Source: Anaerolinea sp. (GTDB lineage: Bacteria; Chloroflexota; Anaerolineae; Anaerolineales; Anaerolineaceae). Taken from it: a DNA stretch of 13,380 nt. Shown here one piece after another: positions 1 to 12,916 of this stretch. How positions within the stretch are numbered: position 1 is the stretch's first letter; each line of letters opens with the position of its first letter. A program made the translations under genes and the position numbers. The notes under the pieces were generated by a model that saw only the letters and a program-made list of their open reading frames with translations, was not told the DNA's origin and made no database searches. The stretch spans positions 1 to 13,380 of the forward strand of contig PNNU01000042.1 in the NCBI GenBank assembly GCA_013824385.1, in the 5' to 3' direction.

Positions 1-815
1 TCCGTGAAGGGGAAGAAGCTCGCCCTGAAGCGGGTGCGCACGTTCTGTCCGAACAGGCGCCGGGCCAAATCGGATAGCGTGGCCTTGAGGTTGCTGAAGG
101 TGATGCCTTCGCCTACTGCGATGCCTTCGATCTGATCGAACTGCGTCTCGTGGCGCGCATCCGTCTGCTCGTAGCGGTAGCACATGCCCGGCAGCACCAG
201 GCGGATGGAGGGGGGATTCTCAGGGTTGGTTGCGGCATACTCGCGCATCGAACGTACCTGCCCCGGGGATGTGTGTGTGCGCATCACAATGGGGTTGTCA
301 CCGCGCTCGCCTGCCTCCACAAAATAAGTATCCTGCATATCGCGGGCGGGGTGCCCGACGGGGAAGTTCAAGAGTTGGAAGTTATACTCGTCCGTCTCGA
401 CCTCGCGCGAACGATAGACCTGAAAGCCCATCTCGCCGAAGACGCGGTAAAGCTCGCGCAGCATCTGCGTATCGGGGTGCAGCCGCCCGGGCGTCATGGG
501 GCGTCCCGGCAGGGTCACATCCAGCTTTTCGCTGGCAATCGCCGTGGCCAAAGCGGACTCCTTGATGCATTCGGTGCGCTCGGCCAAAGCAGCCTCCAGC
601 GCGACTTTAACGCGGTTGGCGGCCTGCCCCACCTGCGGACGTAACTCCGTGGAGAGCTTGCCCATCGCCTGGAACGCTTGCGTGATGGCCGTGTTCTTGC
701 CGAGATATTGATTGCGCCAGGCCAGCAGCGCTTCTTCATTGGCAATGGACTTTAAATGTTCAAGCCCTTTTGCCAGCGCGGCTTCCAGTTCTTGCAGCAC
801 ATTTTCTTCTGCCAT
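1..815 (-). CDS. pheS: Phenylalanyl-tRNA synthetase alpha subunit, 5' part (runs off the left edge)
   Basis: Charges tRNA-Phe with phenylalanine as part of the cytoplasmic alpha2beta2 PheST enzyme. The reading frame gives 271 residues, open at the left edge; the family is usually about 330-350 residues. The N-terminal ~85 residues are the helical coiled-coil tRNA-binding arm. The class II catalytic core follows: LPGRP near residue 102, the HPARDMQDTYF block at 155-165, and the motif 2 region with RYEQTDARHETQFDQIEG at about 214-231. The ATG at 813-815 is preceded by a good AGGAG ribosome binding site (about 820-824). Expression is controlled by the T-box leader directly upstream. pheT is expected beyond the left edge but cannot be seen. 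Seen: motifs and start. Known: family role. Very confident of identity. Confidence 0.97.
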   Translation of the reverse strand, partial: MAEENVLQELEAALAKGLEHLKSIANEEALLAWRNQYLGKNTAITQAFQAMGKLSTELRPQVGQAANRVKVALEAALAERTECIKESALATAIASEKLDVTLPGRPMTPGRLHPDTQMLRELYRVFGEMGFQVYRSREVETDEYNFQLLNFPVGHPARDMQDTYFVEAGERGDNPIVMRTHTSPGQVRSMREYAATNPENPPSIRLVLPGMCYRYEQTDARHETQFDQIEGIAVGEGITFSNLKATLSDLARRLFGQNVRTRFRASFFPFT

Positions 816-832
816 ATTACGCTCCTGCACTT

Positions 833-866
833 AAAAAAATAAACCCATCCCATAAAACGGGACGGG
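833..866 (-). terminator. T-box attenuator terminator of pheS
   Basis: On the minus strand CCCGTCCC (866-859) pairs with GGGATGGG (851-844) across a 7-base loop, with one G-U pair. A T-rich run follows (842-833). It lies between the T-box antiterminator sequence and the pheS ribosome binding site, as expected for premature termination when tRNA-Phe is charged. Confidence 0.9.
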
Positions 867-994
867 AGACATTTCCCGCGGTACCACCCGGCTTGGCCTC
901 ATTGTGGCCCACTCTTTCCAACTCCAAACCTCGAAATTGGTCAACCCAAATAACGCTGGGATCAGCGGCTCAAGCTACTTGCTCTTGCCTTTCC

Positions 995-1021
995 TGATTA
1001 CTGATTACTAATCACTAATCA
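995..1021. repeat. GATTA/TAATC palindrome inside the pheS T-box leader
   Basis: The arms 995-1007 and 1009-1021 are inverted copies built from TGATTA units, with one central mismatch. They form a near-perfect 13-bp snap-back with almost no loop. A related 16-bp inverted repeat lies at 12833-12884. Here it sits between Stem I and the antiterminator, where T-box leaders usually carry a variable Stem III. It may therefore be a repeat that was inserted and tolerated there. Confidence 0.75.
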
Positions 1022-1151
1022 CTGCGAGAGTTTCACCCGAGCGACTCGAGAGGGAACTTCAACCGATTTTCACTGAGCGAACTCTCAACATGTGTCCGCA
1101 TCTCTGTCAGTTTCGTCCGGTCTACTTTCCTCCGTCACTGCCTGTGGGGGT

Positions 1152-1160
1152 ATTATATCA
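1152..1160 (-). promoter_or_regulatory. Probable extended -10 promoter for the pheS leader
   Basis: The minus strand reads TGATATAAT at about 1160-1152: a perfect TATAAT hexamer with the TGn extension. No convincing -35 box was found at standard spacing, as is common for extended -10 promoters. It would start transcription just before the T-box Stem I. Confidence 0.6.
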
Positions 1161-1212
1161 GGAAAGGATTACTTATAAATAGTCTATTGTTAAATCGAAT
1201 CTATTTTCAAAA

Positions 1213-2535
1213 TTATTTATTAATCTCACTTAAAAGATTCTTAGCAATTGCCATCACAACACCTACATGAACTCCATTGCCCAATGCTTTAAAGGCATCA
1301 TCTCTTGAGATTGGTAATATGTGAGTATCTGGTAAACCTTGAAGTCTTAACCCCTCAATACGAGTAAGAAACCTTTTTTTGGGGCCAAATAAGGGGATTT
1401 GTGTGCTTGTCATTGCAACAAGCGATGGAGATGAATTAATTCTTTTTACACGTAACCCTGAAGGTCGAAATTGTAAAACAAAAGACCAAATATTCCTTTC
1501 TTCTCCCTTACAATTCCATTCAAGTTTTCGGAGAGAAGGAGGATATGTTTTTAGCTTATTGATCCACTCTTCACTAAGGTATTCACTAATAGATTCAAAC
1601 CAATTTCGGTTTTTATTAATGAAGTCAATTTTCCAATCAGGAAATTTATCGTCTTGTGATTGAGCGTATTTTGGTAAATATGAAATAATTGACTCTTTAC
1701 TCATGTACTTAGTGTCTATTTCATTTTTTAAACAGTTACGCAATTCTTCCAATGGAGTTTGATATGGAGTATGTTCCTTATAAGGATATTTATAGTAAAT
1801 TTCATCACCCCAAATTGGAAAGGATGGCAGGTTTATGCTATTAGGCAATGTTTGTAATAGTTTCCCCCAATGGTTAATGCAATCAATTTGTTGAAAAGTT
1901 GGTGTTGTTTCCAAAAAATCATTTTCAGACAGTTCATTATTATCTTGAATAATATCTAACAATGAACTTATATGATTCCTATCAAAATCAGGAAAAGGTT
2001 TTTTGAGTGGGGCATTTAATCTTCCGATAATAAAAAATCTTTCTCTTGAATGAGGAAATCCAAAATATTGTGGAGAAATTAACCCTGTGCCGCCACTTGT
2101 GACATGTTCAGTTCCATAGACTTCATAACCTAAAAGTTCAAGTTCTTCTTTGATGATTTTCCATGTTCTTCCTTGATCATGACGCTCAAAATTCCCAACA
2201 TTTTCTAAGATTAGAAATTGAGGAAATTTCTTTTTAATGATATGAATAATTTCATAGAATAATGTTCCTTGAATTTCATCTTCTAATCCTAATTGAAATC
2301 CAGATTTCGAAAATGGTTGACAAGGAAACCCTGCACAAAGAATATCATGATCTGGAACTAGGTCTCTAAAATTCCTAATATCTCCAAAAATCTTATCCTT
2401 AGATTCTGGAAAATTCTTTTCATAAATATCTCTAAGGTCATTATCTATTTCAGAAACAAAAACACATTCATGGCCCAATTTGGAAAGTGCAACATTAAAT
2501 CCGCCTAGACCGGCAAATAAATCGATAAATTTCAT
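1213..2535 (-). CDS. DNA (cytosine-5-)-methyltransferase of an R-M-like cassette
   Basis: Transfers a methyl group from S-adenosylmethionine to C5 of cytosine in a specific DNA sequence, presumably protecting the host from the cassette's nuclease. The protein has 440 residues with the expected motif order. Motif I is FAGLGG at 7-12. Motif IV is GFPCQPFS at 69-76, with catalytic Cys72. Motif VI is ENV at 111-113 and motif VIII is HSRERFFIIG at 162-171. A long variable target-recognition region spans about 185-385. Motif IX is the TRIEGLRLQGLPD stretch near 391-403, and motif X includes ALGNGV near 417-422. The ATG at 2535 lies 7 bases after the nuclease stop, so the two are probably co-transcribed. 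It is last in the cassette. Codon and base use are AT-rich, unlike the flanks. The target sequence cannot be deduced. Family assignment is secure. Confidence 0.96.
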   Translation of the reverse strand: MKFIDLFAGLGGFNVALSKLGHECVFVSEIDNDLRDIYEKNFPESKDKIFGDIRNFRDLVPDHDILCAGFPCQPFSKSGFQLGLEDEIQGTLFYEIIHIIKKKFPQFLILENVGNFERHDQGRTWKIIKEELELLGYEVYGTEHVTSGGTGLISPQYFGFPHSRERFFIIGRLNAPLKKPFPDFDRNHISSLLDIIQDNNELSENDFLETTPTFQQIDCINHWGKLLQTLPNSINLPSFPIWGDEIYYKYPYKEHTPYQTPLEELRNCLKNEIDTKYMSKESIISYLPKYAQSQDDKFPDWKIDFINKNRNWFESISEYLSEEWINKLKTYPPSLRKLEWNCKGEERNIWSFVLQFRPSGLRVKRINSSPSLVAMTSTQIPLFGPKKRFLTRIEGLRLQGLPDTHILPISRDDAFKALGNGVHVGVVMAIAKNLLSEINK

Positions 2536-2542
2536 TGGATTC

Positions 2543-3391
2543 TCAATTTTGATAAATATTTATTTGTTCTTGAATCCAAGTATTTAGATCTTCTTCTAAT
2601 AAGATGTCATTTATACCGGAATTTAATAAGTTAATGAGCCGAATTCTATCAAAAAGCAGCCCTTTTTCAACTGATTTTTCATGCCAATCTCGTTCTTTGA
2701 TTATGCATGGTACTGCAAACGCAGTTATTGGGTGTACTCCCCAATGAAGATATTGTTTCCAATTCTCAATTGGAACAGGTTGTTTATCTGACCAATTATG
2801 ACCAGCTGCACATTGGACTAATAATACAACCTGGCTTGATCTGTTGTCAAAATGAGGGATCCAACCAACAACATCAAGACCTCTGTCTTTAAAATGAGAA
2901 GGTGGCGATTCAATAAATCTTTCATTCAGAGAAGTGGAAAGTTGCTTAATTTTTTGTTTTATCGCTGATTCTTCGTTTCCATCAATCGGTTCAAATGGCC
3001 AACCAAAAACTTCTGCTTTACCAGTTAAGTATTTTTCAACTGCATATTTTGTTATTTTTTCAAATATCTTTCCGGGGGTTTGAGTATTACCCTGCACTCC
3101 AAATATTGAAAGAAACAAACACATAATATATTCGTTTGGCGGGTTTGATTGAAAAATCCATTGAATGGACCGATCATCAATATAAAAAAAGTTATCTAAG
3201 TAAAGAGAATTCCGATATTCTAATTCCCTCCATACATCAGATAAAAATGATTCTTTAACATCATCTCCAGTATTGGTCTCGATCAATGATTCGATATCTG
3301 ATTTAGATAAAGTGTTTTTTTGTAAAGCTAAATTTAATTCGACCCAATCAGCAATGCATTCACTTGATTCAGTGTCTGGAAGCCCAATCAT
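2543..3391 (-). CDS. Candidate PD-(D/E)XK-type restriction nuclease, 282 aa
   Basis: I do not recognise this as a named enzyme. Its position between a ParB-like gene and a C5 methyltransferase suggests the cleaving component of an R-M-like system. Visible features resemble a divergent PD-(D/E)XK core. A helix carries GKIFEK (Glu111). Next comes RGLDVVGW, with Asp173 at the start of a strand. The hydrophobic strand VVLLVQCA follows, with Gln193 where the E/Q of the (D/E/Q)XK motif would lie. The usual lysine is Ala195, so the motif is atypical; Lys203 or Lys212 could substitute. No HNH, GIY-YIG or PLD motif was seen. The ATG at 3391 overlaps the ParB-like stop by 4 bases (ATGA), which implies translational coupling. 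It could instead be an accessory or DNA-binding subunit. The nuclease call is inference. Confidence 0.6.
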   Translation of the reverse strand: MIGLPDTESSECIADWVELNLALQKNTLSKSDIESLIETNTGDDVKESFLSDVWRELEYRNSLYLDNFFYIDDRSIQWIFQSNPPNEYIMCLFLSIFGVQGNTQTPGKIFEKITKYAVEKYLTGKAEVFGWPFEPIDGNEESAIKQKIKQLSTSLNERFIESPPSHFKDRGLDVVGWIPHFDNRSSQVVLLVQCAAGHNWSDKQPVPIENWKQYLHWGVHPITAFAVPCIIKERDWHEKSVEKGLLFDRIRLINLLNSGINDILLEEDLNTWIQEQINIYQN

Positions 3392-4530
3392 AAATAATCC
3401 TCTACTGATTTTTCAAGTGCTAAGATATTTCCCTTTATTCGTTCAATTTCTGCAACAACATCTGAAGTTTTATGTCTATGAATAAAACTCAGTACGGTTT
3501 CAATTTTTCTATTAGATTCTCGCAAATATTTAAGAACCATTTTTTCTTCACCGTCTGACCGATCATAAGCTTCCACAATATTATTCGTCGATTCTAAATA
3601 AGCTATAGCTTCATCACTTGAAACAATGTCTGATAAGTAATTTGTTATATCTCGTGATTCATGAATCGCGGGCCTAATTTTTTCGTTCCCGTAAATCCAA
3701 GTTAAGAACTTTTTTAAATTCCCCATTTTTTCTTTAGGAATTGGTGAATTAATATCTGAGTTTTGAATTTTTTGTGGTAACCCTAAGTAATTTTTGATAT
3801 TTCCCTGTCCAACCGCTAGCAACAAATAAGAAAAGTCGTTTTTTGCTTCTTTTATATTGAAGTCAAGTTGATCCTTTGCTTGTTCAACGATCTTATAACT
3901 CACATAATTACGAATTAAAGCGCCTGATTGATCCCCTATTTGATTTCCAATTTCTTCTAGTGAAAATCCACTTTCGATCATTTTTGCTATGTATCGCGCT
4001 TTTGCATATGATTCCCATTTTTGAATACCAACAATATGCCTAACCCCTAAATAGGGAATAACTTCAATGCGTTTTTGGTAAATAATTACAGGTAGATTAC
4101 TTAAATCATTTCTGACTTTTTGTGAAATCATAGGCCAGTTAGTAATATTTAATAAATCACGTAAATTTTCATTTAATAACAATTTTGCTGTTGCTAATCT
4201 TCTGTTACCTTCAACAACGACATATTCAATATTTGGATTATTTAAAAAATCAATAAAGTCCGAAGACTCAACAGGAATATTTTGTAATTTCTCAGGAAGA
4301 TCCTTTGGTATAGCAACTAACGGCTCTTCATCAAAATATCCATTATTAGCCATCGAGTCTGCTAAAGTATTTAAAGAAAAGTATTTATATAGAGTTTTTA
4401 GAAGCGAAAATTCGTCTTTTCCTTGAGCTTCTTCAGGGAGTCTTGGGTTTTCGCTATCAAGGAATAACTTATTGATATCGATATCCTTTTGTGGATGTTT
4501 ACGGCCTATCCCAAGTGGTTTGTCAACCAT
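3388..4530 (-). CDS. ParB-like (ParB/Srx fold) protein, first gene of the R-M-like cassette
   Basis: 380 residues. The N-terminal half looks like a ParB/sulfiredoxin-fold domain: an SENPRLP block at 26-32 and a VVVEGNRRLATAKLL block at 104-118, where EGNRR corresponds to the nucleotide/phosphate-binding box of ParB proteins. Residues about 165-217 (HIVGIQKWESYAKARYIAK onward) resemble the ParB central helix-turn-helix DNA-binding domain. The C-terminal ~45 residues are charged and probably helical. ParB-fold proteins bind CTP or ATP and slide on, or sometimes nick, DNA. The partner genes suggest a role in phage defence, not plasmid partition, and no parA or parS is visible. The start at 4530 has a GGAGA ribosome binding site. 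A promoter and an imperfect palindrome lie about 35-80 bases upstream. Family assignment is good; function is inferred. Confidence 0.8.
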   Translation of the reverse strand: MVDKPLGIGRKHPQKDIDINKLFLDSENPRLPEEAQGKDEFSLLKTLYKYFSLNTLADSMANNGYFDEEPLVAIPKDLPEKLQNIPVESSDFIDFLNNPNIEYVVVEGNRRLATAKLLLNENLRDLLNITNWPMISQKVRNDLSNLPVIIYQKRIEVIPYLGVRHIVGIQKWESYAKARYIAKMIESGFSLEEIGNQIGDQSGALIRNYVSYKIVEQAKDQLDFNIKEAKNDFSYLLLAVGQGNIKNYLGLPQKIQNSDINSPIPKEKMGNLKKFLTWIYGNEKIRPAIHESRDITNYLSDIVSSDEAIAYLESTNNIVEAYDRSDGEEKMVLKYLRESNRKIETVLSFIHRHKTSDVVAEIERIKGNILALEKSVEDYL

Positions 4531-4564
4531 AGATTTTCTCCATAATCAATATTTATAGAAATTA

Positions 4565-4608
4565 ATTATATATAAGATTCATTTTTTGGTAATGGTATAT
4601 TACTATTA
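4565..4608 (-). promoter_or_regulatory. Promoter and possible operator of the ParB/nuclease/methyltransferase cassette
   Basis: The minus strand has -35 TTACCA (4592-4587), a 16-bp spacer and a perfect -10 TATAAT (4570-4565), upstream of the ParB-like start at 4530. An imperfect palindrome, TAATGGTA-tat-TACTATTA (4590-4608, one mismatch), overlaps the -35 box. It could be an operator, for instance for autoregulation by the cassette's own DNA-binding protein. The operator role is inference. Confidence 0.55.
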
Positions 4609-4738
4609 AAAGCGTTTTAGTGCGTTACAAGCTTCAAATATTATCAATAATAGCTAACCCCACAAAAAAATTGCGCATTAAGTCTTTAACCAATCCAGTC
4701 AACAAAAATGTACAAGGTCTTTATTTGGGTGCTTAAAA

Positions 4739-4785
4739 GGACACGGCGCGTCGTGTCCCTAATATGGCTATTTTGTGGCGTGTCC
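4739..4785. repeat. P repeat, copy 1 (GGACAC palindrome plus tail)
   Basis: GGACACG (4739-4745) is inverted as CGTGTCC (4752-4758) around GCGCGT. A conserved tail follows (4764-4785, ATGGCTAT...GTGGCGTGTCC). The same palindrome-plus-tail architecture occurs at 7834, 10152 and 10325. Confidence 0.85.
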
Positions 4786-4815
4786 ATTTTCCCTCGGTAC
4801 AAACAATTTCCCCTC

Positions 4816-4844
4816 TTGACAAAACAGAACATATATTCTAATAT
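4816..4844 (+). promoter_or_regulatory. Orphan consensus promoter pointing right
   Basis: A perfect -35 TTGACA (4816-4821) is separated by exactly 17 bases from TAATAT (4839-4844). No plus-strand gene follows. Downstream lie a CAATTTA/TAAATTG hairpin (4870-4887) and the convergent HigA-ImmA gene. If active, it would make a small or antisense RNA. The region is AT-rich, so a chance match is possible. Confidence 0.4.
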
Positions 4845-4940
4845 ATAAATCTCCCAATAATGGTATGTCCAATTTATCGGTAAATTGTCTGTTTTCGGTT
4901 CTTTAATAACTGAATATATTGCGTCCGTCATGCACAACAT

Positions 4941-4979
4941 CGATTATTCGAATCTACAAAAAATCGGTTCGAATAATTG
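4941..4979. repeat. Inverted repeat ATTATTCGAA/TTCGAATAAT
   Basis: The arms 4943-4952 and 4968-4977 are perfectly complementary over 10 bp and extend to 12 bp with one G-T wobble. The loop is 15 bases. No gene start lies close by, so its role is unknown; it could be a relict operator or a hairpin RNA. Confidence 0.6.
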
Positions 4980-5157
4980 TCGAGAGCCGTTTGAGTCGAA
5001 TTGAATTTAATTGATTTTTCTTTAAAACGACTAACCAGTGATTTGTTTTCTTTGTTCCTGAATTTTCTTTGAAACAAATACAAATCAAAATTCACCCTTT
5101 TTGAGATCGATTTCCGCCAAAAAAGACCATTTGTACGTAGAAACAAATAACTAATCT

Positions 5158-5340
5158 CTTTGCGAACCGCTTGATTCTATATGGTTTGTTTTAATATGAT
5201 CTTCTTTGCGGGCTCCGCGGCTCTGCGTGAGCTTGATTTTGCCCATGGTTATTATGTGGGGTGTCCAGAAAACAGCAATAATTAATGCTCTTCTTTGCGA
5301 ACTTTGCGCGAATTTACTTTGTGTTCTTTGCGAGAGACAG
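5158..5340. repeat. Cluster of CTTTGCG-type intergenic repeats with a lone P tail
   Basis: CTTTGCG/CTCCGCG/GCGTGAG-type units occur at about 5158-5169, 5199-5232 and 5287-5340. Between them, 5245-5266 matches the P-repeat tail of 4764-4785 at about 19 of 22 positions, without the palindrome. Related units occur at 6986-7020, 10402-10452 and 11086-11159, always between genes. Confidence 0.8.
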
Positions 5341-5346
5341 GTTTTG

Positions 5347-6552
5347 TCACCCACTCATTTCTTCAAACAGACTCCTGACCTCGCCATTCCCCAAAAGATT
5401 TGAGTGAAGAGTGAAATCCTTAACGTCGTGCCTGATGCGTCCGGCGACAACTGCCGGGCAAACCCCTATTTTCTCCGCAAGCTGGCTGATATAAGCGGAC
5501 TCTGTGGTCTGCATCAATCTGGTGCTCTCGGCTTCCCAGATTTGAGGCGGGATCAACAGCTCAGAAGCAAATTGGTTCGCCTGGTTTTCAAGATCGTCAC
5601 AATCAGGGCTGCTGTGCTCTGTGTTATCCATAAACACCGAGTCGATGCCTTTAAGCAAATGGAGCATCACATGCGCAAGTTCATGTATCAGCGTGAACCA
5701 AAAATTATCCTGCCGGTCATGCCGCAGGGTCATGCCTATTACGGGCCTCCCATCAGGGTTTAAAAAACAGGCTCCGTCCAGATAGGTGTGTGGCAAATGT
5801 TTGAGGATCACAAGCGGAATCCCCAACTCCGCCAGATAATCACGGGCTTTGATGGGACCTGTGGTATATGCACTTAGTTTGACTATTTGCTGAATCTTTT
5901 CGACAGTAATCCTGCCCGGATCAAATTCCTGACATCTTTGTAGGTTTGCCTTGGTGAGTACTTGTGCCTGCCAGGCTAATAAGGCGTTTTGATCTATTTC
6001 TCCTTCGGAACTTCGGCATAAGGCCAACGATTGAGTTTTTCCTTTAAAAACCGAGAATAATTGTTCAAGGCATTCTTCTGCATGCTGTTTCGCCTGATTT
6101 AAATTCCCGACATAACCAGAAAAATAGCCGCGGTTGGCCATTTCATTAAATGGAAAATCTCTTCGTTCAAAGTGTTGCTTCGGAAGTGTGGCACCTGGCT
6201 CCTGGATTAAAACTTCGGCGGGAATCCCCAGCCCTTCGTACAGATTGCGGATCATCGAAAGGCTTAATGGTACTTTTCGATTGAGGATTTCAGACACTTT
6301 GCTCTGGCTTCCAATAAAGGGGATCAAATCCTTTTGGGTTAATCCTTGTTGTTCCATGCGGAATTTGATGGCATCTACGGGGTCAGGCAATGGAATTGGA
6401 AAATGGTCCTCTTCGTATTTTTCTATCAACACAGATAGCAGTTCCAATTGCTGCTCTTCTTTGGACCCGGGTTCAGCATCCATCAATAATTCCAACTCAG
6501 ATAATGCTGTCTCATATTCATCTTCTGTTTTTATAACTTTGTCGATCATCAT
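5347..6552 (-). CDS. HigA-like HTH antitoxin fused to an ImmA/IrrE metallopeptidase
   Basis: 401 residues. The N-terminal part (1-118) is a HigA-type antitoxin: an acidic helical lead, then an XRE-like helix-turn-helix (about 60-110, with LTQKDLIPFIGSQSKVSEILN). It should bind the upstream toxin HigB and repress the operon. The C-terminal part holds an ImmA/IrrE (COG2856-type) zinc peptidase. The metal motif is HELAH at 290-294 (in TLIHELAHVMLHL), and a candidate third ligand region is DDLENQANQFASELLIP (Glu322). ImmA peptidases cleave HTH repressors, so the fusion could process itself, other HigA-type regulators or phage repressors. The start (MMID) overlaps the higB stop by 4 bases (ATGA). 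At about 400 residues it is far longer than a lone HigA (~100-130). Domain calls are secure; the protease substrate is inferred. Confidence 0.9.
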   Translation of the reverse strand: MMIDKVIKTEDEYETALSELELLMDAEPGSKEEQQLELLSVLIEKYEEDHFPIPLPDPVDAIKFRMEQQGLTQKDLIPFIGSQSKVSEILNRKVPLSLSMIRNLYEGLGIPAEVLIQEPGATLPKQHFERRDFPFNEMANRGYFSGYVGNLNQAKQHAEECLEQLFSVFKGKTQSLALCRSSEGEIDQNALLAWQAQVLTKANLQRCQEFDPGRITVEKIQQIVKLSAYTTGPIKARDYLAELGIPLVILKHLPHTYLDGACFLNPDGRPVIGMTLRHDRQDNFWFTLIHELAHVMLHLLKGIDSVFMDNTEHSSPDCDDLENQANQFASELLIPPQIWEAESTRLMQTTESAYISQLAEKIGVCPAVVAGRIRHDVKDFTLHSNLLGNGEVRSLFEEMSG

Positions 6553-6842
6553 ATTGTCACCGCGTCAATTTTGTCATATTCCGCGTGAGTGCCGATAAAT
6601 CTGATAAAAATCACGCCTGTGTTGTAATGGATTTTCACCACAAGTCGATAACTGTTTCCTTTGATATTGAAAACAATTCGATTATCTCCGACTGGGTCTG
6701 CGTATGGATAGTTATTAACAATTTCATCAGAAGTTTTCCAGGATGCATTTTGAGCTTCAGCATGCCATGCTAGAAGTGCTTCCTTGACATCGGTGTGTTT
6801 ATCCCAAAAATCTGATAATGTTTTTCTTTTGATGATTCTCAT
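6549..6842 (-). CDS. higB: HigB-type mRNA interferase toxin
   Basis: A small RelE/HigB-superfamily toxin of 97 residues that would cleave mRNA on the ribosome when released from its antitoxin. Family hallmarks are visible: the start MRIIKRKTLSDFW, the central LLAWHAEAQNASWKT segment, the DNRIVFNIKGNSYRLVVKI strand pair, and the C-terminal FIRFIGTHAEYDKID with the conserved HAEYD block. I chose the ATG at 6842, not a TTG at 6857, because the family normally begins with MRII and GGGGA precedes the ATG. The toxin precedes the antitoxin, the usual HigBA order, and its stop overlaps the next start (ATGA). A consensus promoter lies unusually close upstream. Confidence 0.93.
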   Translation of the reverse strand: MRIIKRKTLSDFWDKHTDVKEALLAWHAEAQNASWKTSDEIVNNYPYADPVGDNRIVFNIKGNSYRLVVKIHYNTGVIFIRFIGTHAEYDKIDAVTI

Positions 6843-6844
6843 AT

Positions 6845-6901
6845 AATATATCCCCAAATAGGAAAAATGTCAATATTAAAATATCCAAAAAAAGGATATT
6901 T
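6845..6901 (-). promoter_or_regulatory. higB promoter and possible operator
   Basis: The minus strand carries a perfect -35 TTGACA (6873-6868), a 17-bp spacer and -10 TATATT (6850-6845). Just upstream is an inverted repeat, AAATATCC (6879-6886) and GGATATTT (6894-6901), around seven A residues. It is a plausible HigA operator. The -10 ends only two bases before the higB ATG, so a transcript starting at the usual distance would be leaderless or would begin inside codon 1 or 2. Confidence 0.6.
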
Positions 6902-6985
6902 GACTTAATTCCCTCAACTGCAACATCATTTATTTCTAAAGAATAACATTAATTGTGATTATCGTGTCTATAAATTTACACAAAA

Positions 6986-7020
6986 GATCTTCTCCGCGTA
7001 CTCCGCGGCTCCGCGTGAGA
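6986..7020. repeat. CTCCGCG-type intergenic repeat downstream of vapC
   Basis: Three tandem-like CTCCGCG/ACTCCGCG/CTCCGCGTGAG units end 8 bases from the VapC stop codon. It belongs to the same family as the CTTTGCG repeats elsewhere in the window. Confidence 0.75.
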
Positions 7021-7028
7021 CAAAGCTC

Positions 7029-7400
7029 TTACTTCTCTAAATAAACCACTCCCGCCAACCCCTTGAAATGCGCATCAAGCGTCCACACTTCGGCATCATG
7101 ACTGAGCGCCGTGGCGTAAATAATACTGTCCGCCATAGGCAGCTTGTGCTCAGCCGAGATCAGGGCTGCCTCAATCGCCTGGTCGCGGGTCAGATCTACC
7201 ACCTCGCCCGCGGACATTAACCCCGCGGCCCGCAAGGCTTCTTCTTCATCGCGCTGCTGCAATATCTTTTTGAACACTTCGTAAATCGTGATTGCAGGCA
7301 CCACCAGCTCTTGAGGCTTTTCAATAAACGGCAGCAACTTCATACCTTGTGCTGACCCTGCGAAAAACTCCATCCACCCCGACGAATCAATTACGATCAT
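7029..7400 (-). CDS. vapC: VapC-type PIN-domain ribonuclease toxin
   Basis: A 123-residue PIN-domain toxin, the usual VapC size. VapC enzymes are Mg-dependent endoribonucleases that cut tRNA or rRNA. The acidic residues expected in the active site are present: Asp5 in VIDSSGWME, Glu41 in AITIYEVFKK, Asp91 in MADSIIYATA and Asp109 in TLDAHFKGL. The ATG at 7400 overlaps the vapB stop by 4 bases, coupling translation to the antitoxin. No frame damage or missing residue is seen. Which RNA it cuts cannot be read from sequence. Confidence 0.94.
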   Translation of the reverse strand: MIVIDSSGWMEFFAGSAQGMKLLPFIEKPQELVVPAITIYEVFKKILQQRDEEEALRAAGLMSAGEVVDLTRDQAIEAALISAEHKLPMADSIIYATALSHDAEVWTLDAHFKGLAGVVYLEK

Positions 7401-7615
7401 GGCCGTTCGCCCTCGTCGCGCTCTATGGTCGTGTCAATGCCCTTGAGAGACCCGAACGCCTCTTCCGCGCTGGGGACGATCACCATGCGGGCGCTGTTGC
7501 GATAGGGGATAAAGACCACCCGTTGCCCTGCGGTGAGGTTCATCTTTTCTCTGATGCTCTTGGGAATCACGATTTGAAACTTGGAAGACAAGGTTGTAAT
7601 GTCCACTTTTACCAT
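7397..7615 (-). CDS. vapB: VapB-type AbrB/SpoVT-fold antitoxin
   Basis: A 72-residue antitoxin. Residues 1-50 form a swapped-hairpin AbrB DNA-binding domain (VDITTLSSKFQIVIPKSIREK, then LTAGQRVVFIPYRN). The C-terminal ~20 residues are acidic and would wrap VapC. It should autorepress the operon with VapC. I trimmed a longer open frame to the ATG at 7615. AAGG sits immediately against that ATG, so a GTG three codons later (7606), with AAGGATGG at better spacing, is a real alternative start. A TATAAT on the minus strand (7648-7643) is a likely -10; no clear -35 was found. Confidence 0.9.
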   Translation of the reverse strand: MVKVDITTLSSKFQIVIPKSIREKMNLTAGQRVVFIPYRNSARMVIVPSAEEAFGSLKGIDTTIERDEGERP

Positions 7616-7679
7616 CCTTGATCGATACAAATAGGTAAAAATATTATACAACCATTTATCAGATTCCAGTACACAAATG

Positions 7680-7956
7680 CGTATCAATGGTCTGGTATGG
7701 GCGGATGATGCGAATTTCGCATACCACCAGTCCCCAGATTCTTCGGGGTGAGCTGTGAAGCGGCGAGAGGTACGGACGCTCTCGATAATGCTAAACTGCA
7801 CCGCGTCCAATTGTTTGCATAAAGGCATAGTTTGGGGACACGGCACGCACCCAAGGGTGTGCACACTTGCCCAGGCTGCAAGTGCCAGGGAAGAACGCGA
7901 TCGTGTCCCTACAATGGCAATCATGTGCCGTGTCCATAAATCCGAATCACGGGTCT
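7680..7956. repeat. Composite intergenic repeat, copy A (modules M, hairpin, P, M)
   Basis: The order of parts is as follows. Module M (7680-7697, CGTATCAATGGTCTGGTA) comes first. An ATGCGAA/TTCGCAT hairpin at about 7708-7722 follows. A linker with CTCGATAATGCTAAA starts at about 7780. Palindrome P with tail spans 7834-7935. A second M-like module (7943-7956) closes the element. Inside P, GCACGCACCC faces GGGTGTGC (7843-7862). A further perfect 7-bp hairpin (CACTTGC 7864-7870, GCAAGTG 7878-7884) is extra relative to the copy at 10152. The element fills most of the gap between vapB and the kinase gene. No gene was found here. Confidence 0.85.
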
Positions 7957-7977
7957 ACTGAAGATCTGAATTCAAGT

Positions 7978-9843
7978 TTATTGCGAGTAGGCACAACGGA
8001 AACCGCTGCTATAGCTCGTGTTCGACGGATAGTTCCTGAGCCGGTCGGCGGAGTGGAAGTTGTCTTCATAGCTGCACCACGACCCACTTCGCAAGACGCG
8101 GCCATCACCTGTAGTAGGCCCCTGTGGGGAATTCACTGAACCTGAAGGGTAACTGCCATACCTATCCGATACCCATTCCCAAACGTTGCCTGCCATATCC
8201 AATGCTCCATATGGGCTGGCGCCATCTGGGTAACTGCCCACTTTGGTGGTATCTCCTTCTTTTAGATTGTAATTGGCTAGATTATTATTTGCTTCTTCCC
8301 CTGTCCATGGATAGGTCTGTCCAACTTCTCCCCGCGCTGCTTTCTCCCATTCCGCTTCAGTTGGAAGTCTTCTGCCCGCCCATTGGCAATAGCCGTTTGC
8401 CTGATCCCAATCCACGTAAATCACCGGGTAATCTGCATATTCTAGAGATCCATAGTAGCTGTTTCTTGTATAAGACGAAGATGAAGATGGTTTTGTACAT
8501 CCTCCATCATTCACACATTGCTCATACATGGCATTGGTTACTTCTGTCTGGTCAATCCAATAGCCATCCAAAGTCACGCTGTGCTGAGGGTGCTCATCAT
8601 CTTCACCTACGCCATCCAGAGACCCCATCAGAAAATCTCCAGCAGGTACATAGACCAGGACCATGCCGTCCTTGGGCGAAATCATGGTTGTACCTGCGTC
8701 AGGTGCAGGGGGTGCTGCTGTGGGCACGACTTTTGTCTTGAACCATCCACTAGCAACTCCGATGATCAGCATCAACAGCACAACCCCGACCAGGCTTAAG
8801 CCAAATATTTTGCCAAAAGAAAATTCAAATTTCACAGGTATTTTTTGTGGTTCAGATGATGAAGTTGAATTTGATGTTTGGTTCACTAGCTTGGGGGGGT
8901 AGTTGATCGTAGCCTCTAACTGATTGATGGTGGCATAGGGGTCACGCTCATTTGCGGTTTGAGGAACTAAGGTTTCAAAGGAGGTAACGATTGTTTTATC
9001 ATCGGGGGTCGAGTTTTCAAGTTTCTTAAATGCCGCAGCTAACTCGCCCATATTTAGGTAACGGTCTGAAGGATCTTTTGCCAGCGCTTTATAGATCACT
9101 TTTTCAATGGAGTCTGGTAATCCGTCTATGATCGCACCAGGTTGAGGTAGTGGATCGGTCATATGCTTAAAAACCACGGCCATGGGAGTGTCTGCTGTGA
9201 ATGGTTTCTTGCCGGTGAGCAGTTCGAAAAAGATGATCCCGAGTGAATAGATATCTGCTCTGCCGTCTATCTTTTTGCCCATTCCCTGCTCGGGCGCCAT
9301 ATATTCAGGTGTGCCTATGCCGACACCTGTGCCAGTGAGAGTTTGACCATCTTCCAGGTCGAGCATTTTGGCGATACCGAAATCGGTGAGCATTGGTTCG
9401 CCACTGGTGGTCATGAGAATGTTGGCGGGTTTTACATCTCGGTGAATCACATCCTGTTCATGTGCATAGGCGAGCGCTTTGGAAATTGGCAGCAACAGCC
9501 TTATCGCACTCTGCCAGGCCATGGGTTTACCCATCAGTTGTTTCAAAGTACCGCCAGCCAGGTAGGGCATCACCAAGTAAAGGCTGCTTTCATATTCACC
9601 ATAATCAATGATGGGTACGATATTTGGATGAGTGAGCTTTGCCAGTGTTTTTGCTTCGCGTTCAAAACGCTTGAGCATTTGTCCAATCAATTCCTGGCTG
9701 AAAGCTTCTTTGCGGATGATCTTGACCGCCACATCCCGTTCAAGGCGGGTATCAAAAGCCTTATAAACCGTAGCCATGCCGCCTTCACCGAGTTTTTCGG
9801 TGATGTGGTAACGACCGAGTGATTGACCAATTAAATTATTCAT
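7978..9843 (-). CDS. Membrane-anchored Ser/Thr protein kinase with C-terminal FGE-sulfatase-like domain
   Basis: 621 residues. The cytoplasmic kinase domain spans about 11-275. It has glycine loop GEGGMATVYKAF (19-30), VAVK lysine 41, candidate alpha-C Glu63, the HRDVKPAN catalytic loop (134-141; Asp136), DFG at 154-156 and APE at 183-185. All key residues are present, so it should be active, as in PknB-type Hanks kinases. A low-complexity linker leads to one transmembrane helix (about 346-368). The outer part (about 393-620) is an FGE-sulfatase domain: MVLVYVPAGDFLMGS, the RRLPTEAEWEKAARG block at 491-505, DMAGNVWEWVSDRY at 549-562 and GFRCA near the C-terminus. The catalytic Cys pair of true formylglycine-generating enzymes is not conserved, so a sensor or ligand-binding role is more likely. 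The start at 9843 has AAAAGG upstream. Confidence 0.95.
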   Translation of the reverse strand: MNNLIGQSLGRYHITEKLGEGGMATVYKAFDTRLERDVAVKIIRKEAFSQELIGQMLKRFEREAKTLAKLTHPNIVPIIDYGEYESSLYLVMPYLAGGTLKQLMGKPMAWQSAIRLLLPISKALAYAHEQDVIHRDVKPANILMTTSGEPMLTDFGIAKMLDLEDGQTLTGTGVGIGTPEYMAPEQGMGKKIDGRADIYSLGIIFFELLTGKKPFTADTPMAVVFKHMTDPLPQPGAIIDGLPDSIEKVIYKALAKDPSDRYLNMGELAAAFKKLENSTPDDKTIVTSFETLVPQTANERDPYATINQLEATINYPPKLVNQTSNSTSSSEPQKIPVKFEFSFGKIFGLSLVGVVLLMLIIGVASGWFKTKVVPTAAPPAPDAGTTMISPKDGMVLVYVPAGDFLMGSLDGVGEDDEHPQHSVTLDGYWIDQTEVTNAMYEQCVNDGGCTKPSSSSSYTRNSYYGSLEYADYPVIYVDWDQANGYCQWAGRRLPTEAEWEKAARGEVGQTYPWTGEEANNNLANYNLKEGDTTKVGSYPDGASPYGALDMAGNVWEWVSDRYGSYPSGSVNSPQGPTTGDGRVLRSGSWCSYEDNFHSADRLRNYPSNTSYSSGFRCAYSQ

Positions 9844-9875
9844 AAAATACCTTTTTGTGAATAATGCTTAGATTA

Positions 9876-9881
9876 ATTATA
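9876..9881 (-). promoter_or_regulatory. Probable -10 box of the kinase gene
   Basis: The minus strand reads CTTGTATAATTAATC; the hexamer TATAAT is at 9881-9876, 33 bases before the ATG. No good -35 was found at standard spacing. A TTACTT-c-AAGTAA palindrome (9899-9911) lies in the -35 zone and could bind a regulator. Confidence 0.45.
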
Positions 9882-10004
9882 CAAGACTCTTCAATCCATT
9901 ACTTCAAGTAATAAATTATTTGTCATTAATAATCTTACCAAGAAGTGTAAAGGTATCCGCTTTTTCAAAAATTTACCCACTTATGATTTTTTCAAGTTAA
10001 TAAA

Positions 10005-10110
10005 AACGCCTGGCTCCAAGTGCTAGTTTTGCCAACCCCGGTGCTTTTCCGGGGTGTAGCATAAGGTCCCCAGCAGGGGGAACCTCCACCATGGTTAGCC
10101 CTCTAGATTA
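10005..10110 (+). ncRNA. Structured RNA candidate, possibly HEARO/IscB omega-RNA-like
   Basis: On the plus strand a nested fold can be drawn. GCCAACC (10031-10037) pairs with GGTTAGC (10093-10099) with one mismatch and closes two hairpins. These are CCCCGG (10036-10041) with CCGGGG (10049-10054) around a 7-base loop, and GGTCCCC (10065-10071) with GGGGG-AACC (10076-10084) around AGCA, with small bulges. CTAG at 10023-10026 can also pair with CTAG at 10103-10106. The block is GC-rich within AT-rich flanks and is not one of the window's repeat families. The layout recalls HEARO RNA (IscB omega RNA), but no IscB or TnpB gene lies nearby. That identity is from memory and unverified. The strand is uncertain; on the minus strand it would lie upstream of the kinase gene. 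Confidence 0.45.
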
Positions 10111-10133
10111 ATCGGTAATCCAGTCCACATATC

Positions 10134-10371
10134 CGCATCACGGGTCTGGTAGAGACACAGCACGCACCCAAGGGTGTGCAAAGAACGCGACCGTGTCTCT
10201 TACAATGGACATCGTGTGCCGTGTCCAAAAAAACGTATCAATGGTCTGGTAAGGGCGCATGCAATGCGCCCTCGATAACGCCAAATCACGCAGTGTCTAT
10301 TTGTCTGCATCATGACGTCATTTTGGGCACAGCGCGCTGTGCCCCTACCAAGGCTATCACGTGTCATGTCC
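10134..10371. repeat. Composite intergenic repeat, copy B (modules M, P, M, hairpin, P)
   Basis: The order of parts is as follows. Module M (10134-10151, CGCATCACGGGTCTGGTA) leads directly into P with tail (10152-10226, with GCACGCACCC-aa-GGGTGTGC inside). A second M follows (10234-10251, CGTATCAATGGTCTGGTA). Next is a perfect 9-bp hairpin, AGGGCGCAT-gca-ATGCGCCCT (10252-10272), then a CTCGATAACGCCAAA linker. The last part is the perfect 20-bp palindrome GGGCACAGCGCGCTGTGCCC (10325-10344) with its tail to 10371. Modules and order mirror copy A at 7680-7956. No gene was found in this stretch. Confidence 0.87.
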
Positions 10372-10401
10372 TTTTTGTGGGCTTGGTTTGATTAGAATTA
10401 T

Positions 10402-10452
10402 GATCTTCTTTGCGAGCTTGGCGTGCTCTTACTTTGCGTTCTTTGCGAGAAA
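10402..10452. repeat. CTTTGCG-type repeat upstream of padR
   Basis: GATCTTCTTTGCGAGCTTGG, ACTTTGCG and TTCTTTGCGAGA units lie in tandem, closely resembling the copy at 5287-5340. The repeat ends just before the padR promoter. Confidence 0.8.
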
Positions 10453-10464
10453 AGCTCCTTTTTC

Positions 10465-10501
10465 TTGACGCCTTCTCTTTAATATGTTATTAATAACATA
10501 T
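10465..10501 (+). promoter_or_regulatory. padR promoter overlapped by a PadR-type operator
   Basis: The -35 is TTGACG (10465-10470). A 17-bp spacer leads to TATTAA (10488-10493) as a probable -10. A perfect 20-bp palindrome, ATATGTTATTAATAACATAT (10482-10501), covers the -10. It contains ATGT-N8-ACAT, the operator form known for PadR-family repressors. This arrangement predicts autorepression. Confidence 0.75.
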
Positions 10502-10531
10502 GTACGTCATAACATAACTAAAGGCGCTCAA

Positions 10532-11071
10532 ATGGATCTTCACGCTACCATCCTCGGCCTGCTCAACTGGCACCCCTGTTCAGGCTACGACCTCAAGCGC
10601 ATCATCTCCGACTCGGATCTCTTCTATTGGTCGGGCAACAACAACCAGATCTACAAGATCCTGCTCGAGCTTCAGCAGGCTGGGCAGGTCACCTTTGAAG
10701 TACAGGAGCAGGCCAGCCTGCCCGCCAAGAAAATCTACTCTGTCACGGATGCAGGCCGTGCGGAACTCCAGCAGGCGCTCCTGCAAGCACCTGAAGCTCC
10801 CGAGATGCACAAGGATTTCCTCATCCAGCTCGCCTGGGCCGGGAGTCTGTCGGACGATGTCGTGCTGGCCCTGTTGACCCTCTACGAGGCGGAGGTCACC
10901 AACCGTCTTAATCTCTACCGTGGCCAGGCACTCCGCACGGAAAACGATCCGCACCGCACCCCACGTGAAACCTTCCTCTGGCGCCGCATCCATGACAACT
11001 TCATCCAAGCCTGCCAGACCGAGCTCCAATGGACCCGCGACACCGCGCAAGCGATCAGAGAACAAGAATAA
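10532..11071 (+). CDS. PadR-family transcriptional regulator
   Basis: 179 residues. The N-terminal winged helix (about 1-80) opens with MDLHATILGLLNWHPCSGYDLKRI, typical of PadR, followed by NNNQIYKILLELQQAGQV and the wing with KKIYSVTDAGRAEL. The C-terminal helical part (90-179) fits the PadR subfamily with a larger dimerisation domain (Vir_act_alpha_C type). PadR proteins are usually repressors released by small hydrophobic ligands. I used the ATG at 10532, not an in-frame start 48 bases earlier, because the homologous region begins there and AAGG precedes it. A perfect PadR-type palindrome covers its promoter, pointing to autoregulation. Its other target could be the EF-Ts-like gene 108 bases downstream, but that link is inferred. 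Confidence 0.93.
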   Translation: MDLHATILGLLNWHPCSGYDLKRIISDSDLFYWSGNNNQIYKILLELQQAGQVTFEVQEQASLPAKKIYSVTDAGRAELQQALLQAPEAPEMHKDFLIQLAWAGSLSDDVVLALLTLYEAEVTNRLNLYRGQALRTENDPHRTPRETFLWRRIHDNFIQACQTELQWTRDTAQAIREQE

Positions 11072-11085
11072 TAATAGAAAATGGT

Positions 11086-11159
11086 TTTCTCTGCGTTCTC
11101 GCGGTTTTTGCGCCCCCGAGCGAAGCGAGTGGGGTTGCGCCGCTGCGTGAGATGAATTT
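11086..11159. repeat. CTCTGCG-type repeat with internal hairpin between padR and the EF-Ts-like gene
   Basis: TTCTCTGCGTTCTCGCGG opens the element and CGCTGCGTGAGATGAATTTT closes it. Between them CCCC/GGGG arms flank GAGCGAAGCGAG, giving a GC-rich hairpin inserted in the repeat. The family is the same as the CTTTGCG repeats. Confidence 0.7.
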
Positions 11160-11179
11160 TGAACTTAACAAGGAATAAT

Positions 11180-11635
11180 ATGCAACCCACAACCGAACCC
11201 ACCTACGGCCACATCGAACTCTACTCCCATGCCAACGGACGTATCGGCGTCATGGTCGAAATCCATACCGAGACCGAAGAGGGTGCAGCCTCTGAGATTT
11301 TCCTCAAATTCGCCCACGAGATCGCACTGCAGGTTACCGCCGCCGACTTGCGCTTCGTCTCCGACGCGGATCTCACCTGCGGGGTGCTCAGCGGTCTGGC
11401 CGCTGAAACCGCCTCCACGGCGAGGGACGCCGGTAAACCCCAGGTTATCATCGACAAGATCGTTGAGGGCACACTCGAGAAATTTAAGAACCAGAACGTT
11501 CTGCTTCGCCAGCCCTACATCCGCGACGAGAGCCTTACCATCGCCCAACTACAGCAGCAGGTCATCACTCAGATTGGCGAGAACATCGTCATCCGCCGCT
11601 TTCTGCGCTGGGAGATCGTCCCAGAGGAAGAATAA
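11180..11635 (+). CDS. Short standalone EF-Ts-like protein lacking the N-terminal UBA-like domain
   Basis: 151 residues resembling the core of translation elongation factor Ts. The GHIELYSHANGRIGVMVEI strand pair (10-28), FAHEIALQV (44-52), GKPQVIIDKIVEGTLEKF (85-102), LLRQPYIRDESLT (108-120) and IGENIVIRRFLRWE (132-145) match the EF-Ts pattern block by block. The usual N-terminal UBA-like domain is absent. The ETDFV motif that contacts EF-Tu is replaced by ETEEGA (31-36). A normal bacterial EF-Ts is about 200-300 residues, so this is probably a paralogue and not the housekeeping factor. The function is unknown; it could bind EF-Tu weakly or act in another complex. The start at 11180 has AAGGA upstream, and TTG at 11159 was rejected. 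It lies in the same direction as padR. Confidence 0.8.
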   Translation: MQPTTEPTYGHIELYSHANGRIGVMVEIHTETEEGAASEIFLKFAHEIALQVTAADLRFVSDADLTCGVLSGLAAETASTARDAGKPQVIIDKIVEGTLEKFKNQNVLLRQPYIRDESLTIAQLQQQVITQIGENIVIRRFLRWEIVPEEE

Positions 11636-11637
11636 AC

Positions 11638-11673
11638 AAACGTAGAGGCGTATAGCCAAACAGCCCTACGTTT
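11638..11673 (+). terminator. Possible terminator after the EF-Ts-like gene
   Basis: AAACGTAG (11638-11645) and CTACGTTT (11666-11673) form a perfect 8-bp stem, with a possible inner GGC/GCC pairing. It begins 2 bases after the stop codon. The trailing T run is only three bases, so termination strength is uncertain. Confidence 0.45.
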
Positions 11674-11794
11674 CCCGAAGAGTGCTATTTCCAAAGCGGT
11701 TTTGCAAGAAAGGCATTGTCCCCGAGAAATCCAAACTTCCTTTATAATTACCCCATTCCGCATCTTAAAGGATCCTCCGATGGTTCTCTAATCC

Positions 11795-11844
11795 TTTCCA
11801 AAATATTTACACCCAATCTATAATTACAACATTACCCGAAAGGA
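11795..11844 (+). promoter_or_regulatory. Promoter and ribosome binding site of the GNAT gene
   Basis: The -35 is TTTCCA (11795-11800), the spacer 18 bp, and the -10 a perfect TATAAT (11819-11824). GAAAGGA (11838-11844) lies 6 bases before the ATG. Another TATAAT at 11743-11748 lacks a well-placed -35. Confidence 0.6.
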
Positions 11845-11850
11845 TTTCAC

Positions 11851-12777
11851 ATGAAAGCGGATTCTTTACCTTTTAACTTGCAGCACCCCACCCCGGAAGA
11901 TCTCGACCGGGTGTTCGAATTTCTCATTGCATTTGATATTGCCGAATATGGTGAAGAGGATTCAGATAAAGACGACCTCACGGACCAATGGTCTGAAGCT
12001 GACCTTGCCAACGATGCCTGGATCTCTCAAGACGACGAAGGACGGCTCACCGGTTATGCCATACTCTCTGAAGAATATGATCACAAGCGTTTCCTGGATG
12101 TTTACGCCCTTCCTCTCATTACTCCAAAGGCTCTCACAGAGACACTCTACGAACTTGGGGTTGAACGCTTTCAAACCCTGATCAAGGAGGGTAAGAGCGC
12201 TGCAAACTGCACCCTTACCACTTTTGCCAATGGATATAACGAAGCGATGTGCGCTGTCATCCAGGCGCACGGTTTTGCTGTCGAAAAATATCATTACCGC
12301 ATGCAAATAAATTTTACTGAACCATTTGCAAGCCCTGCTTTCCCATCGGAATATACACTTTCGAAATTTACTCAGGGTGACGAAAAAGAACTCTATGAAC
12401 TGATCATCAGTACCTTTGACTGGCAGGGTGCGCATATTTTGCCTTTTGAAGACTGGAGCAAAGATATCTTCCGCAACGGACGTTTTGACCCCGAACTCTT
12501 CATCATGCTTCGCAGAGACCAGAAACTTGTCGGTGCAGCCATCTGTTACGACGAAGAGTCACGCATCTGGCTTAAGGAACTTGCCGTTTCCAAAGACCTG
12601 CAGGGCAAAGGGATTGGCTCATTACTCTTGAAACAAGTGTTTGCCCTTGCCGGGCAGAAGAGCATCCCCACCGTATCACTGGGGGTTGCCGCGGCGAATG
12701 AAAAGGCTGGCGCTTTCTATCAGCGCAACGGAATGAGCTGTACGCGCAAGTTTGTTCAATTTCAGCGCCCTGCTTAA
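11851..12777 (+). CDS. GNAT-family N-acetyltransferase with two tandem domains
   Basis: 308 residues. The C-terminal half (about 165-305) is a clear GNAT fold. WLKELAVSKDLQGKGIGSLLL holds the acetyl-CoA motif A, with Q251-G-K-G-I-G256, and NEKAGAFYQRNGM forms motif B. The N-terminal half (about 1-150) has a GNAT-like layout (HPTPEDLDRVFEFLIAFD, then GRLTGYAIL) but no intact Q/RxxGxG/A motif. It is probably a degenerate second domain, as in many duplicated GNAT proteins. The substrate is unknown; such enzymes acetylate antibiotics, small metabolites or protein N-termini. The start is set by the AAAGGA site 6 bases upstream. It has its own promoter and converges with the permease gene. Confidence 0.9.
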   Translation: MKADSLPFNLQHPTPEDLDRVFEFLIAFDIAEYGEEDSDKDDLTDQWSEADLANDAWISQDDEGRLTGYAILSEEYDHKRFLDVYALPLITPKALTETLYELGVERFQTLIKEGKSAANCTLTTFANGYNEAMCAVIQAHGFAVEKYHYRMQINFTEPFASPAFPSEYTLSKFTQGDEKELYELIISTFDWQGAHILPFEDWSKDIFRNGRFDPELFIMLRRDQKLVGAAICYDEESRIWLKELAVSKDLQGKGIGSLLLKQVFALAGQKSIPTVSLGVAAANEKAGAFYQRNGMSCTRKFVQFQRPA

Positions 12778-12832
12778 ACACTTTTATCATGGGTAAGTTT
12801 GAAGGTTGATGAAGTAAGGTAAAGTAAAAAGC

Positions 12833-12884
12833 AGTAATGAGTAATCAGTAATAAGGAAAACCTCTGACCTGATTACTCATTACT
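12833..12884. repeat. Perfect 16-bp inverted repeat between convergent genes
   Basis: The arms AGTAATGAGTAATCAG (12833-12848) and CTGATTACTCATTACT (12869-12884) are exactly complementary around a 20-base loop. It may serve as a bidirectional terminator for the GNAT and permease genes. The building blocks match the GATTA/TAATC palindrome in the pheS leader. Confidence 0.8.
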
Positions 12885-12916
12885 AATTACGAATTGCAAA
12901 TCCCTAATAACCACTC

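Follow-up and report, generated by a model that had tools for sequence, protein, structure and literature searches.

What can a ParB-like protein do next to a nuclease and a DNA methyltransferase? The question is raised by three genes on contig PNNU01000042.1 of Anaerolinea sp., in the stretch of 13,380 nucleotides (forward-strand positions 1 to 13,380) that was analyzed as a whole and is called here the window. Its minus strand encodes, in this order, a predicted ParB/KorB-fold protein (ParB), a predicted nuclease (NUC), and a C5 cytosine DNA methyltransferase (MTase). The first two genes overlap by 4 bases (3388-3391) and the last two are separated by 7 bases (2536-2542); since clear relatives exist for all three, they are not chance open reading frames (ORFs). 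An original prediction, made from the letters of the window alone, took the trio for a restriction-modification (R-M)-like defense system with a ParB-fold third component. Comparisons of co-occurrence and of structure support this view: the trio is very probably a three-gene R-M system, and ParB is probably a working part of its restriction half.

Homologous loci were collected in three sets. The genome set comprises the best 80 of 357 loci retrieved by ParB similarity alone, and the viral set the best 80 of 87 IMG/VR loci retrieved by ParB. For the reverse set, a NUC profile was run against 795 genomes of two phyla and matched 10 of 395 and 7 of 400, giving 17 loci. Of the 80 genome-set loci, 74 carry NUC immediately 3' of ParB (same strand, gap between -200 and 400 bases), with a median gap of -1, and two of these 74, L069 and L075, carry a NUC fragment only. 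The misses are L033 and L037 at contig edges, L042, L057, L070, and L086, where a fragment lies 431 bases off. NUC follows ParB in 78 of the 80 viral loci, both misses being at contig edges. In the reverse direction, ParB adjoins NUC in 14 of 17 loci; of the remaining three, two have a decayed NUC and one has NUC at the very start of its contig. Four of the 14 ParBs are identical to genome-set ones, so ten are new. Decayed NUC copies, or copies interrupted by internal stops, were seen at L187, L189, and L180, in genomes from the phylum of L027. Two differing ParB-NUC pairs stand next to each other within one locus at L002 (4803-9642) and L080 (7974-12865).

A DNA MTase was found within 6 kb in 74 of the 80 genome-set loci, NUC and MTase together in 70 of 80, and an MTase in 70 of the 74 loci that have the ParB-NUC pair. 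The nearest enzyme is of the C5 type in 51 loci, D12 in 12, and N4/N6 in 11. Similarly, 76 of the 80 viral loci have an MTase, always of the C5 type, and the four misses are all at contig edges. Among pairs with at least 4 kb of sequence on both sides, 51 of 53 have an MTase; both exceptions belong to one Cellulomonas locus, L080, and a plasmid pair outside the 53 (L005) is likewise without an MTase as far as tested. The background, estimated for the C5 type only from ten of these genomes (about 39.8 Mb), is about 17 such MTases (split hits merged), about seven of them being the linked ones; chance would therefore account for about 0.5 of 80 loci, against 51 of 80 observed.

The type of MTase changes at least 5 times on the ParB tree, compared with a mean of 25.7 after shuffling. 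All C5 loci fall on one side of a branch (support 95), and D12 and N4/N6 loci interchange, a pattern suggesting that the divide between C5 and adenine-type enzymes may go back to one ancient switch and that there have been several switches between D12 and N4/N6. If near-duplicates are counted, the C5 loci yield 526 locus pairs in which MTase identity exceeds 75% and ParB identity is below 50%, so one MTase can accompany very different restriction halves.

Sequence comparison thus shows ParB and NUC as an almost constant unit of two genes, accompanied by a DNA MTase whose type can be exchanged. The trio has the logic of R-M because it joins a mark-writing enzyme to a nuclease module that is seldom found without that enzyme. 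In agreement with the original prediction, homologues of the three genes do occur together, the pair and an MTase recurring in at least ten phyla (as read from genome descriptions) and in phages; PADLOC-DB holds no model for NUC and matches ParB only in part, REBASE and DefenseFinder being outside this search. The same linkage makes it very improbable that NUC is a Type IV-like cutter of foreign modified DNA, with the MTase as an unrelated passenger or an anti-restriction gene. Such a role would fit the nuclease fold, which is near those of MspJI and AspBHI, cutters of modified DNA, and MspJI depends on 5-methylcytosine (5mC). Nearly every pair, however, is accompanied by an MTase from one of three families, and a 5mC-dependent nuclease beside a C5 MTase would destroy its own host.

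Scans of the trio against Pfam and NCBIfam gave above-threshold matches for the MTase only (PF00145, E 1.1e-65; TIGR00675, E 6.9e-65), which also matches the M.HhaI chain in PDB (E 4.9e-43). At threshold, the window NUC has no family in Pfam, NCBIfam, or PADLOC-DB, and the NUC of phage Wphi, which also carries the trio, has no match in PADLOC-DB; the PADLOC matches of ParB are partial and remote. Both proteins match PHROGs of unknown function, ParB to phrog_3694 (E 1.1e-66) and NUC to phrog_14650 (E 6.7e-21). Structure comparison bore out the assignment of the first gene as ParB-like: its N-terminal and helix-turn-helix (HTH) parts have the KorB/Noc/ParB fold, with KorB closest. No ParB family matched the trio protein at E 0.1, which places it outside the canonical ParB sequence family of ParABS partition systems, yet with the ParB/KorB fold in those two parts, and no ParA was found among the 8 window proteins scanned (other window ORFs were not scanned). 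The pocket motif of ParB, E107-G-N-R-R111, is near-invariant in 154 distinct sequences (partly selected for by one search pattern). In other ParB-fold proteins, mutation of the conserved P-motif arginine removed nucleotide binding (PMC12704722; papers are cited by PubMed Central (PMC) identifier).

The middle gene, originally called a candidate nuclease, encodes a winged helix (residues ~7-82) followed by a PD-(D/E)XK-like domain (~85-262) in an AlphaFold2 model with pLDDT (predicted local distance difference test) 92.9. Its fold neighbors are FokI, MspJI, N.BspD6I, and AspBHI, FokI and MspJI being nearest, with moderate Z scores. The presumed active site consists of E111, D173, Q193, and a migrated K203. 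Among 155 distinct relatives D173 is conserved in all 155, K203 in 147, Q193 in 146, and E111 in 136. In the QxK motif the lysine normally stands at Q+2, which is position 195 in NUC, and the alignment of MspJI with NUC shows Q-A-K at a non-significant E-value of 0.54. K203 without K195 is present in 147 relatives, K195 in 7, none of which has K203, and neither in one; the move is a single event in one clade of the ParB tree. Mutual exclusion of this kind is typical of a catalytic lysine that has migrated, and it suggests that NUC is a functional PD-(D/E)XK enzyme.

The conserved active site and the compensated lysine move point to NUC as the catalyst and make it quite improbable that ParB itself is the cutting or nicking subunit, a DNase of the ParB/Srx kind with NUC as its partner or specificity subunit. 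That alternative has precedents: ParB/Srx proteins, among them a fusion of ParB with a methylase in Bacillus cereus, are reported to nick DNA or to act as DNases (account in PMC5512222), and a survey of HEPN proteins describes an operon with ParB nuclease and DNA methylase genes (PMC3710099).

Whether ParB takes part in restriction can be approached through its divergence. In pairwise comparisons over 133 loci, the identities of ParB and NUC correlate with a Pearson coefficient of 0.96 and a Spearman coefficient of 0.82, and those of ParB and the C5 MTase with 0.66 and 0.74, respectively. Co-divergence is tighter for ParB-NUC than for ParB-MTase, clearly by Pearson and modestly by Spearman. 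ParB could instead do no more than control transcription, as a larger counterpart of the C proteins that acts like KorB or in the way proposed for DndB; NUC by itself would then be a Type II-like endonuclease with the MTase as its partner. KorB, its nearest fold, is a repressor, and parB is the first gene and overlaps that of NUC, as in C-R operons, where the controller gene precedes and overlaps the nuclease gene. Of the 76 viral loci that have an MTase, 72 have it in convergent orientation and hence separately transcribed. The palindromes found upstream of parB are somewhat longer than in shuffled sequences (arm of at least 11 in 10 of 172 regions, 5.8% versus 1.0%), many of them being terminator-like, and the ParB-like DndB has been described as an ATP-dependent repressor (PMC12704722). 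Nevertheless, no shared operator motif was found upstream of parB in genome loci, where the top count of any gapped 6-mer palindrome is 1 in 73 nonredundant regions (control maxima 1-2); the corresponding viral count is 5 in 55 (control maxima 1-2). Moreover, 380 amino acids and a near-invariant pocket motif exceed the needs of a controller, and ParB and NUC diverge in step. A purely regulatory ParB is the chief alternative, though an unlikely one. In the viral loci, CATGCA/TGCATG palindromes occur upstream of parB in 13 of 81 cases (L106, L108, L110, L116, L119-L121, L130, L164, L165, L172, L176, L178), or in 5 of 55 nonredundant ones for one spacing, and none is present in 76 genome upstream regions.

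Returning to ParB as a part of the restriction half, we infer a role for the trio in phage defense, and a ParB whose task is to load or gate the nuclease and not to control transcription. The MTase would mark the host's own sites, and the ParB-NUC pair would cut DNA without the mark. For ParB, Noc, and KorB, binding of a nucleoside triphosphate (NTP) and the ensuing switch to a DNA clamp are established. By analogy, the trio ParB may bind DNA via its KorB-like HTH, bind NTP in the conserved pocket, and then switch into a clamp state. The clamp would load on unmethylated DNA, close with NTP, slide, and recruit or license the separate winged-helix PD-(D/E)XK nuclease, and methylation of the target would prevent loading or cutting. 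This clamp and licensing step is put forward tentatively. The trio would thus use the NTP switch where Type I and Type III enzymes use a helicase motor, and it is possible, though rather doubtful, that the trio represents a widespread class of R-M systems in which a KorB/ParB-type NTP-switched clamp, not a helicase motor, controls commitment to the target.

Among known systems, the trio shares with Type II R-M the linkage of a DNA MTase to a (here predicted) restriction-type nuclease (a PF00145 protein encoded 7 bp from NUC), horizontal mobility, and an exchangeable type of MTase, and differs in that its nuclease has a nearly constant ParB/KorB-fold neighbor with a conserved pocket. The trio has no superfamily II helicase motor of the kind that Type I and III systems possess as a subunit. 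GmrSD and SspE, which act in Type IV and phosphorothioate-dependent restriction, combine a ParB/DUF262-like NTPase with an HNH nuclease, whereas the trio has a separate winged-helix PD-(D/E)XK nuclease, a linked MTase, and a KorB-like HTH. Neither GmrSD_N/DUF262 nor HNH was matched in ParB or NUC, and the same model did match a neighboring protein at locus L003. In DndB and DpdB a ParB-fold protein likewise belongs to a modification-based self/non-self system (PMC12839542, PMC12704722); its task in those systems is modification of bases or backbone, or the regulation of that modification, and the ParB of the trio is tied to a nuclease and ordinary methylation.

The models of component A of PD-lambda-5 (Vassallo et al. 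2022, PMC9519451) match the N-terminal part of the trio ParB (best E 1.6e-15); the best row covers residues 14-191 of 380, and no PADLOC model matches NUC. Genuine PD-Lambda-5_A proteins are matched over their whole length (E 1.9e-133 at L048, E 2.4e-142 at L059), and identity of the trio ParB with PD-Lambda-5_A was rejected for want of a full-length match. At L048 (5675-9993) and L059 (7959-12394) a PD-Lambda-5_A ParB, a D12 MTase, and a ParB-NUC pair are neighbors, apparently two ParB-based systems sharing one MTase, and at L185 a weaker ParB-family ORF faces the pair.

R-M islands, which often contain a cytosine methylase and Vsr, contribute at least one of their three genes alongside the ParB-NUC pair in 18 of 80 loci; the pair and an MTase occur with none of the three in 53 of 80, some contigs being short. 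The three are also absent among the called genes of the window and, by name, among six annotated features around the Wphi trio, and ParB is mentioned nowhere in the text of the R-M-island paper. A later survey of GHKL/C5-MTase neighborhoods lists ParBc (PF02195) among the nearby 'nuclease domains' (PMC8011034) and is a partial precedent.

The trio of phage Wphi has a C5 MTase only 24% identical to that of the window. Its DNA is matched in 139 of 5426 complete E. coli genomes. In 103 genomes (about 2%) at least 80% of the trio is matched, always at 99% identity or more; in the other 36 the match is at 90-95%, and the seven that are listed match the MTase only. One of the 36, L087, nonetheless has a complete trio, whose MTase, ParB, and NUC are 98%, 32%, and 25% identical to the Wphi proteins, respectively. 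It occupies the same place as in Wphi, between portal and replication genes, and the trios of the two E. coli prophages examined follow the portal gene. E. coli trio proteins carry the accessions WP_000368931, WP_001350076, and WP_001143634. In KL3, a P2-like phage of Burkholderia, a conventional R-M module of the EcoRII type stands after portal gene Q (PMC3091744). Both of the E. coli P2-like prophages examined also encode a DUF3850/ASCH protein next to the trio (L087, 6423-6875; L088, 7620-8072), and ParB-DUF3850 fusions have been reported in phages (PMC12704722).

No description of the ParB-NUC-MTase trio was found in the open-access PMC subset; REBASE, DefenseFinder, and preprints were beyond reach, so 'undescribed' holds for the searched sources only. 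Since published work already covers ParB-fold proteins in restriction (GmrSD, SspE, DndB), operons of ParB and methylase genes (PMC3710099), and ParBc in the vicinity of C5-MTase islands (PMC8011034), we class the trio as a variant of R-M. It is easily missed, because its nuclease has no named family. If the R-M reading is right, an uncharacterized system resides in a known phage and in about one in fifty complete E. coli genomes, as well as in many bacterial phyla, and defense-finding tools gain two new protein families, this ParB clade and NUC. The P2-like prophage locus of E. coli offers a tractable laboratory system in which to learn if DNA restriction can be driven by a ParB-type NTP switch. 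With the MTase swaps, among them the nearly identical enzyme that accompanies two highly dissimilar ParB-NUC pairs, it becomes directly testable which component reads the site. An NTP-switched clamp, if true, would add a further coupling of NTP to restriction besides the Type I/III motors and give the CTPase-switch fold a new role.

Table 1. Features of the trio and its borders in the window
Feature	Position	Strand	Remarks
ParB/KorB-fold NTP-binding and HTH protein (predicted), 380 aa, first gene	3388..4530	-	
NUC, winged-helix and PD-(D/E)XK-like nuclease (predicted), 282 aa, middle gene	2543..3391	-	
C5 cytosine DNA methyltransferase, 440 aa	1213..2535	-	PF00145, TIGR00675, M.HhaI chain
Candidate promoter before parB, TTACCA-16-TATAAT	4565..4592	-	consensus match only, 10/12
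Terminator-like hairpin with T run, between trio and pheS	844..866	-	

The low G+C content originally noted for the trio is confirmed, with 0.326 compared to 0.606 at the pheS end and 0.46-0.53 in four of five right-hand stretches; the fifth, HigB, has 0.372. The trio is below its flanks in 49 of 51 loci measured. The single promoter that had been proposed is not supported: 19 sigma-70-like matches in 830-5350 against a shuffle mean of 18.8 are at chance level, and the NUC gene contains matches equal to or better than the fair candidate before parB (Table 1), so that a separate promoter for the MTase is possible. Terminator-like sites number 11, compared with a shuffle mean of 2.7, and the hairpin next to pheS could be either the end of the trio transcript or a pheS leader element.

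About 210 bases before parB there is a near-perfect palindrome of 20 bases (4739-4758; minus-strand sequence GGACACGACGCGCCGTGTCC). Stretches resembling it lie near 4776-4790 and 5264-5285, and TGGACAC-CCACA-like ones are close by; the palindrome is possibly a mobile-element remnant or a candidate ParB site. Beside the trio, 5347-6857 encodes a HigB-type toxin (PF09907) followed by a 401-residue protein with an HTH and an M78/IrrE-like peptidase domain, an antitoxin-like HigB partner of unusual size. A second toxin-antitoxin pair at 7029-7924 consists of a PIN-domain toxin and a MazE/AbrB-type antitoxin ORF. Finally, 7978-9843 encodes an FGE-sulfatase (formylglycine-generating-enzyme-like) domain fused to a serine/threonine protein kinase.

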